DNA of 64,000 bases from Flavobacteriia bacterium. GTDB lineage: Bacteria; Bacteroidota; Bacteroidia; Flavobacteriales_D; Crocinitomicaceae. A program made the position numbers and the translations under genes. This document shows positions 14,036-18,289 of this stretch, piece after piece; position 1 is the first letter of the stretch; every line of letters begins with the position of its first letter. Location of the stretch: the NCBI GenBank assembly GCA_947446925.1, contig CANFHU010000009.1, forward strand, positions 1 through 64,000. Reading direction: 5' to 3'. The notes beneath the pieces are model-generated. The model saw only the letters and a program-made list of their open reading frames with translations. It was not told the DNA's origin and did not search any database.

Positions 14036-14064
14036 TTTATATAGAATATCATAAATTCTTCATC

Positions 14065-14325
14065 ATGACTCCGCAAAACATTACATTACTTAAGGAAGAT
14101 ATCATTGCTTTATTACACTCGAATAAAGACCTTTCGTTATTAAACAAAATCAAATCGCTGTTAAGTTTTGATAGCGAAATCGTAGAAGTCAGCGAAACAG
14201 AAGTTCCATACATCACCATGACAGAGGAGGAGATAGTAAAGCAAGCAAAACTAGCCGAGGAAGAAATCAAACAAGGAAAAACAATTCCTCACGAACAAGC
14301 ATATCGGGAATTTAAAAAATGGTAG
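14065..14325 (+). CDS. Antitoxin of a RelE/ParE-type module
   Basis: 86 residues from ATG 14065, which follows a good promoter element. The protein is acidic and helical: a first half with KEDIIALLHSNKDLSLLNKI and a second with TEEEIVKQAKLAEEEIKQGK, ending in HEQAYREFKKW. The tail resembles the toxin-wrapping end of small Bacteroidota antitoxins. The toxin gene overlaps it by seven bases, which is the usual arrangement. The DNA-binding fold is not obvious. The antitoxin role rests mainly on context. Confidence 0.7.
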   Translation: MTPQNITLLKEDIIALLHSNKDLSLLNKIKSLLSFDSEIVEVSETEVPYITMTEEEIVKQAKLAEEEIKQGKTIPHEQAYREFKKW

Positions 14326-14642
14326 AGATAAAGAAAAACATCCAATGGAGTAGTTTTGCTTTAAAGAATATCAAAGAAATCCATAATTTCTATCTAAAAA
14401 CTGCATCAAAAAAAGTAGCGAATAAAATTGTGGATGAAATTGTGGATGAAATTTTTCATCATGTAAAAACACTTCAAACTACGAGTTATATTGGACAAGA
14501 AGAAATACTTTTAAATAAATTAAACCAAAAACATCGCTATTTAGTCATTCACCACTGTAAAATTATCTATCGCATAGAAAATGATACTGTTTTCATTACA
14601 CACGTTTTTGATACACGTCAACATCCGAAAAAGTTGAGATAA
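14319..14642 (+). CDS. RelE/ParE-family toxin
   Basis: 107 residues. The RelE/ParE fold is recognisable from the N-terminal WSSFALKNIKEIHNFYLKTA helix pair and the C-terminal strand block HRYLVIHHCKIIYRIEND followed by FITHVFDTRQHPKKL. The Arg near the end of the last strand is conserved in ParE-like toxins. Family members either inhibit gyrase (ParE) or cut mRNA (RelE), and the sequence alone does not decide which. It is coupled to the upstream antitoxin gene. Confidence 0.85.
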   Translation: MVEIKKNIQWSSFALKNIKEIHNFYLKTASKKVANKIVDEIVDEIFHHVKTLQTTSYIGQEEILLNKLNQKHRYLVIHHCKIIYRIENDTVFITHVFDTRQHPKKLR

Positions 14643-14665: not shown

Positions 14666-15376
14666 TCACCTAACATGAAACACCAATCCAATACTTGCAT
14701 TTAAAGGAGAAGCATCATAATACCCATATTTACTCCCTGATAGTGGGATTGTTATAGAAACTTGACTTGCTATTTGAAGATATTTAAATGGTGAATATCG
14801 AACAGAAAATGCTAGATCCGACCAGATAAAAGCATGCGGAATGGTTAAGTAAGATGGATCTTGCGTATCCACATGATCAAAATAATTAATCCAAAAAACT
14901 CTTGGTGTCAAAACATATTCTACTTGATTTTTCACTTTGCCAAAATCAGCTTGTAACAACCAACGTGCATATTTTGCCGAACGCACATCGTAATTTTGAA
15001 TAACACCATTACCGGTCGCATTCTGCATAGAAGTATTTCCTTGTCCAAAAGCCAAAAAATATTCATGGATGAAATCCTGCTTGTTTTTTCGAAAATGTCC
15101 AATCCCAAATTCATAAAATTCATGGTTCAACTTTGTGTAATTTGTATTGGAAAAACTAGAATTTTTATTGGTAAAACTTAAATTCCCAACCAAACCTATC
15201 GAGTTTGTTACAGCTACTGCTACTTGTCCATCGTAACCAGTTCCACTGGCATGTCCACCAATTTGTACTTCACCTTTATTTTGAAATAAAGGTACATTTA
15301 CCACATTTTGACGATAGATACCACAAGAATTCAAGAACAATAATCCTAAAAGCGAAAAATAAATAGTTGTTTTCAT
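14666..15376 (-). CDS. Putative outer-membrane lipoprotein
   Basis: 236 residues with a clear lipoprotein signal (FSLLGLLFLNSCGIY, Cys 18). The mature part alternates polar and aromatic residues with many Gly and Asn, compatible with a small beta barrel or beta sandwich (YDGQVAVAVTNSIGLVGNLSF, PFKYLQIASQVSITIPLSG). Related proteins in Bacteroidota are annotated only as hypothetical. It is divergent from the ATPase cassette; the left 58-bp repeat begins 38 bases upstream of its start. Confidence 0.65.
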   Translation of the reverse strand: MKTTIYFSLLGLLFLNSCGIYRQNVVNVPLFQNKGEVQIGGHASGTGYDGQVAVAVTNSIGLVGNLSFTNKNSSFSNTNYTKLNHEFYEFGIGHFRKNKQDFIHEYFLAFGQGNTSMQNATGNGVIQNYDVRSAKYARWLLQADFGKVKNQVEYVLTPRVFWINYFDHVDTQDPSYLTIPHAFIWSDLAFSVRYSPFKYLQIASQVSITIPLSGSKYGYYDASPLNASIGLVFHVR

Positions 15377-15414
15377 ACCTCAAAATTATAGAAATAAACT
15401 TCCATTTTTCGTTA

Positions 15415-15472
15415 ACAATCTCACCTTTTTCACTAACTTAAATTAGATAATAACTAAATTATCTATCAAAAT
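15415..15472 (+). repeat. 58-bp direct repeat, left copy
   Basis: Identical base for base to 16695-16752. It contains an inverted repeat TAGATAAT-aactaa-ATTATCTA at 15444-15465 (8-bp arms around a 6-base centre). The right copy is the natural upstream region of comM and ends within its start codon. The two copies enclose a single ATPase gene. Confidence 0.95.
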
Positions 15473-15484
15473 TCACAAAAAAAC

Positions 15485-15516
15485 GTTACGCATTTTGCGT
15501 TACGCATTTTGCGTAA
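15485..15516. promoter_or_regulatory. Tandem palindromic sites before the ATPase gene
   Basis: GTTACGCATTTTGC occurs twice in tandem (15485-15498 and 15499-15512) and closes with GTAA. The second unit forms a perfect inverted repeat TTACGCA-TTT-TGCGTAA at 15500-15516. A TATTTTTG element (15527-15534) follows, five bases before ATG 15539. This looks like an operator array overlapping a promoter. Confidence 0.5.
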
Positions 15517-15538
15517 TAAATTTTATTATTTTTGTTTT

Positions 15539-16663
15539 ATGAAAAACCCATTTATAATTAACGGATATCAAGGTTCTGAATACTTTTGTGACAGAGAGGA
15601 TGAAACAAAAAAGATTGTAAACAATTTAAAAAACGGTATAAACACAACCCTTTTATCGATAAGAAGAATAGGTAAAACTGGATTAATTCACCATGTTTTC
15701 ACTAAAATTCAAACTGAAAACACATTTAAATGCATCTATATAGATTTGTACGCTACGCAAAATTTAAATGATTTAATCGAAAAAACTGCATCTGCTTTAC
15801 TTTCTGCTTTTCCAGAAAAAAAACAAACTGGTAAAAAATTAATGCAACTTATCAAAGGATTTAGACCAGTTATACAATTTGACACCTTAAGTGGTGAACC
15901 TCAGATTACTTTTGATTTCAAGCAAGAAATTCAAATGAACCACACGTTACAAAGTTTATTTACCTTCCTAGAAAATCAACAAACCAAAACAATTTTAGCA
16001 TTTGATGAATTTCAGCAAATTAATGAATATCCAGAAAAAAACACAGAAGCAATTTTACGAACTATTATACAGAATCTTAATAATGTTCAATTTATTTTTA
16101 GCGGGAGTAGTAAACACCTTTTAATGGATATCTTCAATAATAGCAAACGACCTTTTTTCGCAAGTACACAAGCAATTCAACTTGGTTTTATTCCAATCGA
16201 AAAATATAGTAACTACATACAACAACATTTTGAATCCAATAAAAAACACATTACACAAGAAGCAATTTACTTCATTTTAGACTGGTCAAAACGACACACA
16301 TATTACACGCAAGTAGTATGCAATCGATTATTTAGTCTTGAATTAAAAAATATAACCATAAAAGACGTGCATCATTCATGTAATCAACTACTAAATGAAC
16401 AAGAAGTTATATTCTTTCAATATAGAAACCTACTAACTTCCGGTCAATGGAAAGTTTTAAAAGCGATTGCAAACGAAGGGAAGGTATACCAAATGTTAGA
16501 AAAACAATTCATACAAAAACATGCACTTGGAGCAACATCAAGTACACAACGTACATTCGCTGCATTACTGCACAAAGAGATGATTTATGAAGAGCAAGAA
16601 AAGGAAGGAAGTTACTTCTCAATTTACGATTGCTTTCTTTCCAGATGGCTAGAAAAACTTTAA
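15539..16663 (+). CDS. P-loop ATPase of the archaeal-type ATPase_2 family
   Basis: 374 residues from ATG 15539; a TTG at 15509 is in frame but lies within the palindromic operator-like region. The N-terminal NPFIINGYQGSEYFCDREDE, a modified Walker A SIRRIGKTGLI (about 46-56), Walker B ILAFDEFQQI (about 155-164) and FIFSGSSKHLL sensor identify the PF01637-type ATPase family. The last 90 residues form a winged-helix-like region ending in FSIYDCFLSRWL. Members are often present in many copies per genome and are of unknown function. The gene is alone between two 58-bp direct repeats. Confidence 0.82.
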   Translation: MKNPFIINGYQGSEYFCDREDETKKIVNNLKNGINTTLLSIRRIGKTGLIHHVFTKIQTENTFKCIYIDLYATQNLNDLIEKTASALLSAFPEKKQTGKKLMQLIKGFRPVIQFDTLSGEPQITFDFKQEIQMNHTLQSLFTFLENQQTKTILAFDEFQQINEYPEKNTEAILRTIIQNLNNVQFIFSGSSKHLLMDIFNNSKRPFFASTQAIQLGFIPIEKYSNYIQQHFESNKKHITQEAIYFILDWSKRHTYYTQVVCNRLFSLELKNITIKDVHHSCNQLLNEQEVIFFQYRNLLTSGQWKVLKAIANEGKVYQMLEKQFIQKHALGATSSTQRTFAALLHKEMIYEEQEKEGSYFSIYDCFLSRWLEKL

Positions 16664-16694
16664 AAAAATCAAAAAAAACACCTTGTACACTTTC

Positions 16695-16752
16695 ACAATC
16701 TCACCTTTTTCACTAACTTAAATTAGATAATAACTAAATTATCTATCAAAAT
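16695..16752 (+). repeat. 58-bp direct repeat, right copy
   Basis: Identical to 15415-15472. The last two bases are the first two bases of the comM ATG. The internal inverted repeat lies at 16724-16745 and would sit in the comM promoter or leader. Confidence 0.95.
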
Positions 16753-18289
16753 GCTAGTAAAAACGTACGGTAGCGCTGTTTTCGGATTGGAAGCAACAAC
16801 CATCACCATCGAAGTAAATGTATGCACAGGAGTAAATTTTATTTTAGTTGGTTTACCCGACAGTGCAGTAAAAGAAAGTCAACAACGGGTAAAGGCTGCC
16901 ATCAAAAACATTGGACTGAAATTTCCAGGAAAAGAAATCACCGTCAACATGGCTCCAGCCGATATTCGTAAAGAGGGATCTACCTTCGATGTTCCAATTG
17001 CTTTAGGAATACTCGCAGCGAGTGAACAATTAAGTACTTCCAAACTGGAACAATTCATCATTTTGGGAGAATTATCCCTAGATGGACATATCCAAGCAAT
17101 GAAAGGTATTTTACCAATTGCGATTCAAGCGAAGAAAGATGGCTACAAAGGAATTATTGTGCCGAAAGAAAATGCAGAAGAAGCGGCCATTGTAAACGAT
17201 CTAGAAGTATACGGCGTAGAAACATTAAACGAAGTCATCGATTTTTTAAATGGTACCAATGAACTTACACCTACGGAATTCAATATAGAGGCCAAATTTG
17301 AAAAAAAATTAGAGGAACTATCGGTCGATTTTTCCGATGTGAAGGGCCAACTGAACATCAAACGGTCGTTTGAAATTGCGGCAGCAGGCGGACATAACGT
17401 GATCCTTATAGGGCCACCTGGAGCCGGCAAATCCATGTTAGCCAAACGATTACCTACAATCCTCCCCCCAATGAGTATGGAAGAAGCATTAGAAACCACT
17501 AAAATTCATAGTGTTGCTGGAAAAATGGGAAAGAAGATTGGATTGGTAACGGAACGCCCATTCAGAAAACCGCACCACACAATTTCGAATGTCGCGCTCG
17601 TAGGTGGAGGCGGATACCCGCAACCAGGCGAAATTTCCTTGGCACATAACGGGGTACTATTTTTAGATGAATTACCGGAATATCAACGCACAGTATTGGA
17701 AGTCATGCGTCAACCGCTTGAAGACCGAAGCGTATCTATTTCACGTGCTAAATTTACGGTAGATTATCCTGCAAGTTTTATGCTAATCGCAGCAATGAAC
17801 CCCTGCCCTTGCGGCTTTTTTAACCACCCAGAAAAAAAATGTGTCTGTGGAAATGGCGTGGTACAAAAATACCTGAATCGAATATCCGGACCACTCTTAG
17901 ACCGCATCGATCTGCATGTGGAAGTTACTCCAATAACTTACGATGAACTAACAGTCACAACCCCACAAGAAGGTAGTAAAGCAATTCGTGCACGTGTTAT
18001 AGAGGCGCGCTTAATTCAAAAAATACGTTTTGAAAAAAGGGATGGAGTACATTGCAATGCGCAAATGACAACAAAAGATTTGGGAGATTTCTGCAAATTA
18101 GAACCTATAGTAAACGAAATTCTAAAAAACGCAATGGATCGATTGGGGCTTTCAGCTCGAGCCTTTGACCGAATCCTAAAAGTAGCAAGAACCATTGCTG
18201 ACTTAGACGGACTAGCAACAATTTCGGCTAGCCATATTTCGGAAGCAATTCAATTTAGAAGTCTAGACAGAAACAGTTGGGGAAGTTGA
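16751..18289 (+). CDS. comM: ComM/YifB-family Mg-chelatase-like AAA+ ATPase
   Basis: 512 residues, the usual length. An N-terminal Lon-protease-like fold (KTYGSAVFGLEATTITIEV, GLPDSAVKESQQRV) precedes the AAA+ core with Walker A GPPGAGKSML (about 219-228), LFLDELPEY Walker B, and the family-specific cysteine segment NPCPCGFFNHPEKKCVCG, then LLDRIDLHVEV. In Haemophilus and Vibrio, ComM is a helicase that extends branch migration during natural transformation. The start codon is shared with the end of the 58-bp repeat, so its upstream region has been duplicated. Confidence 0.93.
   Translation: MLVKTYGSAVFGLEATTITIEVNVCTGVNFILVGLPDSAVKESQQRVKAAIKNIGLKFPGKEITVNMAPADIRKEGSTFDVPIALGILAASEQLSTSKLEQFIILGELSLDGHIQAMKGILPIAIQAKKDGYKGIIVPKENAEEAAIVNDLEVYGVETLNEVIDFLNGTNELTPTEFNIEAKFEKKLEELSVDFSDVKGQLNIKRSFEIAAAGGHNVILIGPPGAGKSMLAKRLPTILPPMSMEEALETTKIHSVAGKMGKKIGLVTERPFRKPHHTISNVALVGGGGYPQPGEISLAHNGVLFLDELPEYQRTVLEVMRQPLEDRSVSISRAKFTVDYPASFMLIAAMNPCPCGFFNHPEKKCVCGNGVVQKYLNRISGPLLDRIDLHVEVTPITYDELTVTTPQEGSKAIRARVIEARLIQKIRFEKRDGVHCNAQMTTKDLGDFCKLEPIVNEILKNAMDRLGLSARAFDRILKVARTIADLDGLATISASHISEAIQFRSLDRNSWGS

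Follow-up and report, generated by a model that had tools for sequence, protein, structure and literature searches.

Organization of the comM locus

The window, a 64,000-nucleotide stretch at the start of one contig of a Flavobacteriia genome (G000), contains an ATPase gene enclosed by two direct copies of the leader of comM, a DNA-uptake gene. The features of the locus are:

14666-15376, - strand: lipoprotein-like gene, the left neighbour; no Pfam match; a 61% identical gene adjoins comM in the relative G004
15415-15472, + strand: left copy of the comM leader, identical to the right copy; upstream flank contiguous with the lipoprotein-like gene, as in G004
15444-15465, no strand assigned: dyad in the left copy, 8-bp arms and 6-bp spacer, TAGATAAT-AACTAA-ATTATCTA
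15484-15516, + strand: array upstream of the ATPase gene, two 14-bp tandem units CGTTACGCATTTTG (15484-15511) and a partial third
15539 (ATG)-16663 (stop), + strand: inserted ATPase gene, 374 aa, AAA_14
16664-16694, + strand: gap between the ATPase stop and the right copy, resembling native comM-upstream sequence of relatives
16695-16752, + strand: right copy, the comM leader in place; direct repeat
16724-16745, no strand assigned: dyad in the right copy, 8-bp arms and 6-bp spacer, TAGATAAT-AACTAA-ATTATCTA
16751-18289, + strand: comM, 512 aa; ChlI, Mg_chelatase and Mg_chelatase_C domains

The two copies agree at 58 of 58 bases and lie 1,280 bp apart, which confirms the perfect repeat described in a first-pass annotation of this DNA. 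Its reading of the right copy as the native comM leader also holds, the copy reaching 2 bases into the comM ATG at 16751. Weak in-register similarity extends on either side of the 58 bp (80% over 110 nt). Such a repeat is far beyond chance: in 1.25 Mb of G000, four of 1,039 gene leaders, comM's included, have a copy upstream (at least 50 nt, at least 95% identity, within 6 kb). The three other direct-repeat families in the window (at least 40 nt, within 8 kb) are all closely spaced arrays, with a spacing of 150 or less. Nearly full copies of the leader occur in the genus genomes at comM only. A dispersed repeat was considered and rejected on this ground and because all 17 partial leader matches that were inspected, a part of the total, share a promoter-like motif ahead of other genes.

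The inserted ATPase gene

No open reading frame of at least 80 aa besides the ATPase gene lies between the repeat copies, in keeping with the earlier description of a one-gene insert, and the open reading frame list agrees that the insert encodes no recombinase. The gene had been called ATPase_2; it does encode an ATPase, but the family is better given as AAA_14, whose Pfam cut-off the protein passes (5.7e-10; 39.7 versus 27 bits), ATPase_2 scoring just under its own cut-off (30.1 versus 33.2 bits). The gene is unique in G000, where it matches only itself at E 0.001. By sequence, the closest proteins of solved structure are 2fna, named a conserved hypothetical protein, and 2qen, named a Walker-type ATPase. 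An NCBIfam search gave no match, and a PADLOC search gave one weak match (PDC-S01, 4.3e-6).

The operator-like sites proposed ahead of the gene are genuine repeats, with two 14-bp units at 15484-15511. A significant upstream repeat of about 14 bp is present in 18 of the 19 ATPase-family members tested, the exception (L008) being the closest relative. The repeated sequence differs among members (L009-L025), with CGTTACGCATTTTG, ATACAAAATGTATA and others, and these arrays are possibly cognate operators.

Single-copy sites in relatives

The empty site that would be expected of an insertion does exist in relatives. The order in G004 is lipoprotein-like gene, one leader, comM, and its locus (L061) aligns with the window through the left junction (14670-15486, 69.7%) and again rightward from 16667 (78%). 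In G008 an antitoxin-like gene is followed by one leader and comM. Of 13 genus genomes, 12 have a leader match, with one comM leader copy in ten and two in G000 and G009. A scan of named genome contigs, in which records of the window's own genome may be left out, found ten genus loci under the labels Flavobacteriia, Chryseobacterium, Chitinophaga and others, and one of the ten has two leader copies.

Recurrence at comM with unrelated cargo

A search of 99 genomes found comM in 96, of which nine with fragments only were left out. The survey of its upstream DNA covered 88 regions from 87 genomes, up to 6 kb each (some longer, many shorter at contig ends). A second leader copy of at least 58 nt is present in three of these, G000, G009 and G045. 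The copy in G000 is 61 nt at 98% and its cargo is the AAA_14 ATPase. In G009, 60 nt at 97% surround 4.46 kb that carry a dlt-like operon on the other strand; two of its products match the models of DltB and DltA with scores under the curated cut-offs, and two further genes, judging from position, are presumably dltC- and dltD-like. G045 belongs to another genus and has a comM leader of different sequence, of which 74 nt at 98.6% surround a FISUMP gene. The similarity in G045 reaches about 74 bases past the comM start, for a total of 145 nt at 91%, near-identical at first and then diverged. Within the genus of G045, G026 has one copy, G099 has a 78% match and a 50-nt match on another contig, and G059 and G100 have no leader match. 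No other second-copy match among the 88 regions exceeds 47 nt. In G075 a decayed fragment of comM (codons 95-141, 51% identity) lies upstream of comM.

The duplicated piece ends just before the ATG in G009, 2 bases into the ATG in the window, and about 74 bases inside comM in G045, so that no fixed crossover point exists. A transposon is not indicated either: the insert has no second open reading frame of at least 80 aa and, compared by eye, the window and G009 inserts share no ends. The rate of 3 in 88 exceeds the 4 in 1,039 of leaders in general (p 0.013), a post hoc comparison between different genomes in which comM is itself among the four. None of the open-access literature titles among the matches listed concerns duplication of a comM leader.

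That all ten named genus loci come from metagenome-assembled genomes, and that a repeat of this length can confuse small k-mers, would fit an assembly artefact. However, the junction between leader and ATPase gene must exist in some molecule, and similar structures are present in two other assemblies (G009 and G045), which makes an artefact very improbable.

The dyad is a native feature of the comM leader

Each repeat copy contains a dyad, and its geometry had suggested a passive cassette moved by host Xer, after the manner of pdif modules. In pdif modules and IMEX elements a small passenger gene lies between short repeats that have two 8-bp arms and a 6-bp spacer. The comM locus is alike in its small passenger gene and in repeats with arms and spacer of these lengths. 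In contrast to those elements, the dyad here is part of the native comM leader, and the repeat does not start or stop where the dyad does.

Among comM leaders taken from 13 contigs of the genus, perfect 8-bp arms are present in 11, in the form TAGATAAT..ATTATCTA with a loop of 6 or, in G007 and G011, TTAGATAA..TTATCTAA with a loop of 8. The perfect 8-bp dyad is absent from the leader of G002 and from that of the main comM copy in G012. The leaders of G000 and G009 are duplicated and that on contig C98 of G012 lies beside an ATPase remnant, and the other eight leaders with the dyad have no second upstream copy. Its presence in leaders with no visible insert makes the dyad a genus-level trait of comM leaders rather than the signature of a cassette. 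Outside the genus, perfect 8-bp arms occur in 2 of 75 leaders, about as in shuffled sequences (14/750). The window contains no third perfect match to the dyad; at three or fewer mismatches there are three window matches, which is not unusual (18 of 100 shuffles reach as many).

The proposed link to Xer is not supported by these comparisons. A cassette moved by host Xer, or by another tyrosine recombinase acting on the dyad, would fit the dyad geometry, the two events (window and G009) that end near the comM ATG, and the presence in G010 of a phage-integrase-family gene that shares the upstream motif of comM. Against it stand the native dyad, the boundaries of the copied piece, which differ among G009, the window and G045, and the use of a leader of different sequence in the like event of G045. 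The leader pattern was absent from viral contigs and the leader from plasmids, and a phage search with the leader gave one weak 46-nt match. Given the variable boundaries and the native dyad this explanation was rejected, and we regard it as highly unlikely. A loose dif-like pattern gave 66 matches in G000 versus 121 for the reversed control.

Origin of the two copies and a proposed route of insertion

Upstream of the left copy the sequence continues into the lipoprotein-like gene, an arrangement also found in G004. Other alignments of the left copy start at 15382-15421, and here too alignments to relatives extend 3-33 bases past the repeat. Right-copy alignments start at 16605-16667 for six loci (L057, L058, L060, L061, L062 and L063), at 16659 for the left copy of G009 (L059), and at 16687-16705 for the right copy of G009, L064 and L068. 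For L057, L058, L060, L062, L063 and L059 the start is at or before 16663, the ATPase stop. In an ungapped comparison of the 30 bp ahead of the right copy, G008 agrees at 24 of 30 positions, C98 of G012 at 23, G005 at 21 and other genus leaders at 10-20; 20,000 random 30-mers from the window reached at most 19. The 30 bp ahead of the left copy agree with genus leaders at 7-18 of 30, with 18 for the right copy of G009. Evidence for a native flank at the right copy is thus graded, not clean. The pattern of the flanks fits recombination between comM regions of different lineages and falls short of clean proof.

A donor-like order is present on contig C98 of G012, where a 3' ATPase remnant lies directly before one leader and comM. 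The contig ends within comM and its bin has another comM; it may be a mis-binned contig of a close relative. In this locus (L057), genes that we take to be prkA-yeaH-spoVR-like directly precede the remnant and comM. Relatives that all carried the ATPase with one repeat copy had been named as evidence against a cassette, and this contig answers that point in part, with a single leader beside a remnant of the gene. No intact donor with the order ATPase, leader, comM was found among the genomes searched.

The insertion is real, and on moderate evidence we favour, as somewhat probable, a recombination event that used the comM leader and had one non-homologous junction. In its favour are the single-copy sites of G004, which aligns through both junctions, and G008, the three comM cases with unrelated cargo, the comM pieces in G045 and G075, the native-looking 30 bp ahead of the right copy, the order on C98, the like designs at AIM24 and in G013, and the E. 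coli assay described below. The ATPase gene would have adjoined comM in a related strain and been brought in on DNA of that strain. One end of the donor DNA would have recombined through the conserved comM leader and gene, and the other would have been joined without homology just past the resident leader. An equivalent route would be circularization of trimmed donor DNA followed by a single crossover. Either route would leave, in order, the resident leader ending where comM starts, the incoming gene, and a full leader with comM, so that both comM and its left neighbour would stay whole. We infer the donor arrangement, the route of recombination and any link to natural transformation. Besides the graded flank and the absence of an intact donor from the genomes searched, two observations at comM count against recombination through the leader. 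At 15473-15486, five of the six bases past the 58-bp repeat differ from comM, and then AAAAACGT matches comM in register, a return of similarity that we cannot explain. In addition, the ends of the duplicated piece in G009 and in the window fall within 3 bases of each other. The flank of the AIM24 right copy and the single case of overlapping flanks among six G000 insertions (see below) weigh against it too.

It is possible, if rather unlikely, that this is a true long target duplication, in which non-homologous DNA was taken into a staggered break of the comM leader and the 58 bp were doubled by fill-in synthesis. The AIM24 case of G000 (see below), with 57 bp and no native sequence past the repeat, is in line with this, as is the variation in length, which excerpts of PMC3031569 report for restriction-modification genes. 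Plain duplication would not have brought the native-looking comM-upstream sequence to the left of the right copy. A third explanation is that leader and comM were duplicated in tandem and the first comM was then mostly lost, which would make the cargo a gene that once adjoined comM. G045 keeps a piece of comM after its left leader, G075 has a comM piece upstream of comM, and the FISUMP cargo of G045 is of a kind found after comM in the window. Yet the 1.5 kb that follow comM in G045 contain no FISUMP gene in the orientation of comM, and neither the ATPase in the window nor the dlt genes in G009 follow comM, so that tandem duplication seems improbable.

Comparison with known insertions

The event is well explained as one of a known kind, target-duplicating recombination, and what is new is the cargo and the recurrent site. 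The comM locus is also a landing site of resistance islands in Acinetobacter, where transposons insert inside comM with short duplications, whereas in the window comM is intact and the duplicated leader lies upstream of it.

Insertion with long and variable target duplication has been reported for restriction-modification genes in the excerpted text of PMC3031569, PMC1643837, PMC3154945 and PMC4978471; the original descriptions, cited through the first two, are those of Nobusato et al. 2000 and Furuta et al. 2010, and a passage of PMC2654758 cites it. As in those insertions (excerpts of PMC3031569 and PMC1643837), the gene is absent from relatives and is flanked by long, variable direct copies of the host target. 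The target is single-copy and the insert absent in relatives of G000, the direct repeats are long (58 identical bp in the window), and length and position vary (57, 58, 60, up to 145 and about 200 bp among the cases found). The difference lies in the cargo, which in the excerpted reports, first from Helicobacter pylori, is restriction-modification genes and here is an AAA_14 ATPase, a dlt-like operon and FISUMP or lipoprotein-like genes. Because the cargo is not a restriction-modification system, the claim is narrowed to the same kind of event with other cargo.

In an E. coli assay of homology-facilitated illegitimate recombination, 56 of 60 clones had the structure predicted for a partial duplication, and in the 14 that were sequenced the duplications measured 109-950 bp, which the authors attribute, in the excerpt, to single crossover of a shortened circular molecule (PMC3240628). 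The order of that product, truncated homologous piece, insert, intact homologous piece, is that of the comM locus, but the excerpted assay used a laboratory plasmid and 109-950 bp, compared with 58-60 bp in two comM cases (PMC3240628). For the T6SS effector-immunity arrays of Vibrio cholerae, excerpts of PMC5361080 propose anchoring of incoming DNA by one conserved flank and non-homologous joining of the other end, with old parts retained. The proposal of one-sided homology and the persistence of old beside new are alike, whereas the effector gene is displaced in the arrays (excerpts of PMC5361080) and comM here is whole.

A lone gene can thus settle beside a core gene harmlessly: the leader of the target is copied and comM therefore stays whole. 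The three comM cases in two genera, together with others, extend long-target-duplication insertion beyond restriction-modification genes, and the natural junctions of these cases allow models of recombination to be compared.

Duplicated gene starts elsewhere

A 57-bp start of the AIM24 gene (98%) flanks a lipoprotein-like gene without Pfam match in G000. The AIM24 start is single-copy in G001, G004, G005 and G009. The sequence left of its right copy is unlike native leaders (6-9 of 20), and the donor signature is therefore absent there. In G013 a DUF1016 nuclease gene lies between near-identical copies, about 200 bp long, of the leader and start of the next gene. Repeats of 156 nt (89%) in G000 enclose a gene pair, which we take to be toxin-antitoxin-like, upstream of a dxr-like gene. 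Duplication is not the rule: where about 65 kb of G000 and G008 were aligned, G000 has six insertions, and one of them has overlapping flanks. A repeat around another DUF1016 gene (C1:66862/68364) was not used as evidence, because G001 and G005 too have matches to the end of the gene and to the region on its right, and these lie too close together to hold the nuclease.

Flanking direct repeats of at least 40 bits were found for 28 of 1,053 genes in 1.25 Mb of G000. The repeat scan that preceded this count kept 20 of 64 raw pairs; its filter (more than two copies or low complexity) removed 44, including the window's own pair. By class, such repeats flank 4 of 10 AAA-type ATPase genes, all three DUF1016 genes, one of four ParE-type genes and the one GxxExxY gene, and none of the three AbiEi, AbiEii and ORF6N genes in G000. 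ATPases and DUF1016 together differ from the rest by Fisher's test (p 6.5e-9), with the classes picked after the repeat scan had been seen.

At independent loci, flanking repeats were found for 4 of 29 DUF1016 genes tested (30 fetched), 1 of 28 AAA_14 genes tested (30 fetched) and 2 of 18 members of the ATPase family, against backgrounds of 1/202 and 3/283, two of the latter three being an AAA-type ATPase and a DUF1016 gene. At least one independent locus (L303) was tested on the wrong reading frame. Among the DUF1016 cases, L305 is G000's own, L304 is the same insertion in G004, and L310 lies between two genes that presumably encode type I specificity subunits, so that inspection leaves L309 as the only clean case. 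The AAA_14 case is a hairpin-like repeat. The ATPase-family repeats are in G005 and G003, and part of the G005 repeat recurs elsewhere. A p of 0.0013 predates this inspection and is not to be relied on. Solitary ATPase and DUF1016 nuclease genes may be especially prone to such insertion, the enrichment in G000 being strong but post hoc and the DUF1016 signal in other genomes shrinking to one clean case. It is doubtful, on present evidence, that the comM leader is a preferred landing site and that solitary AAA ATPases and DUF1016 nucleases spread singly by an undescribed long-duplication route, perhaps coupled to competence.

At about 29-40 kb of contig C4 of G000 (L227), repeats of about 100 nt lie between small genes, some of which we assume to be toxin-antitoxin-like. 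This is possibly an integron-like cassette array.

Other observations near comM

In the window an antitoxin-like gene (so named by position; no Pfam match) and then a ParE-family toxin gene occupy 14056-14642, left of the lipoprotein-like gene. Near comM in G008 and G009, only the antitoxin-like gene of this pair was found.

The promoter-like motif AACTTTTTCACTAACTTAAATAAGAAA (15423 and 16703 in the window) precedes comM. Within the genus it also precedes RadC, ORF6N, DUF559, PDDEXK_3, phage-integrase, DUF2851 and GIY-YIG genes (L083, L084, L085, L087, L090, L006 and L007). Judged by the shared motif, these genes may perhaps form a competence regulon. Among the matches listed, no open-access literature title concerns a competence promoter motif of this group. 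The comM gene of L068 (G006:C43) is interrupted near codon 200 by a stretch of about 9 kb, in which two putative recombinase genes lie.
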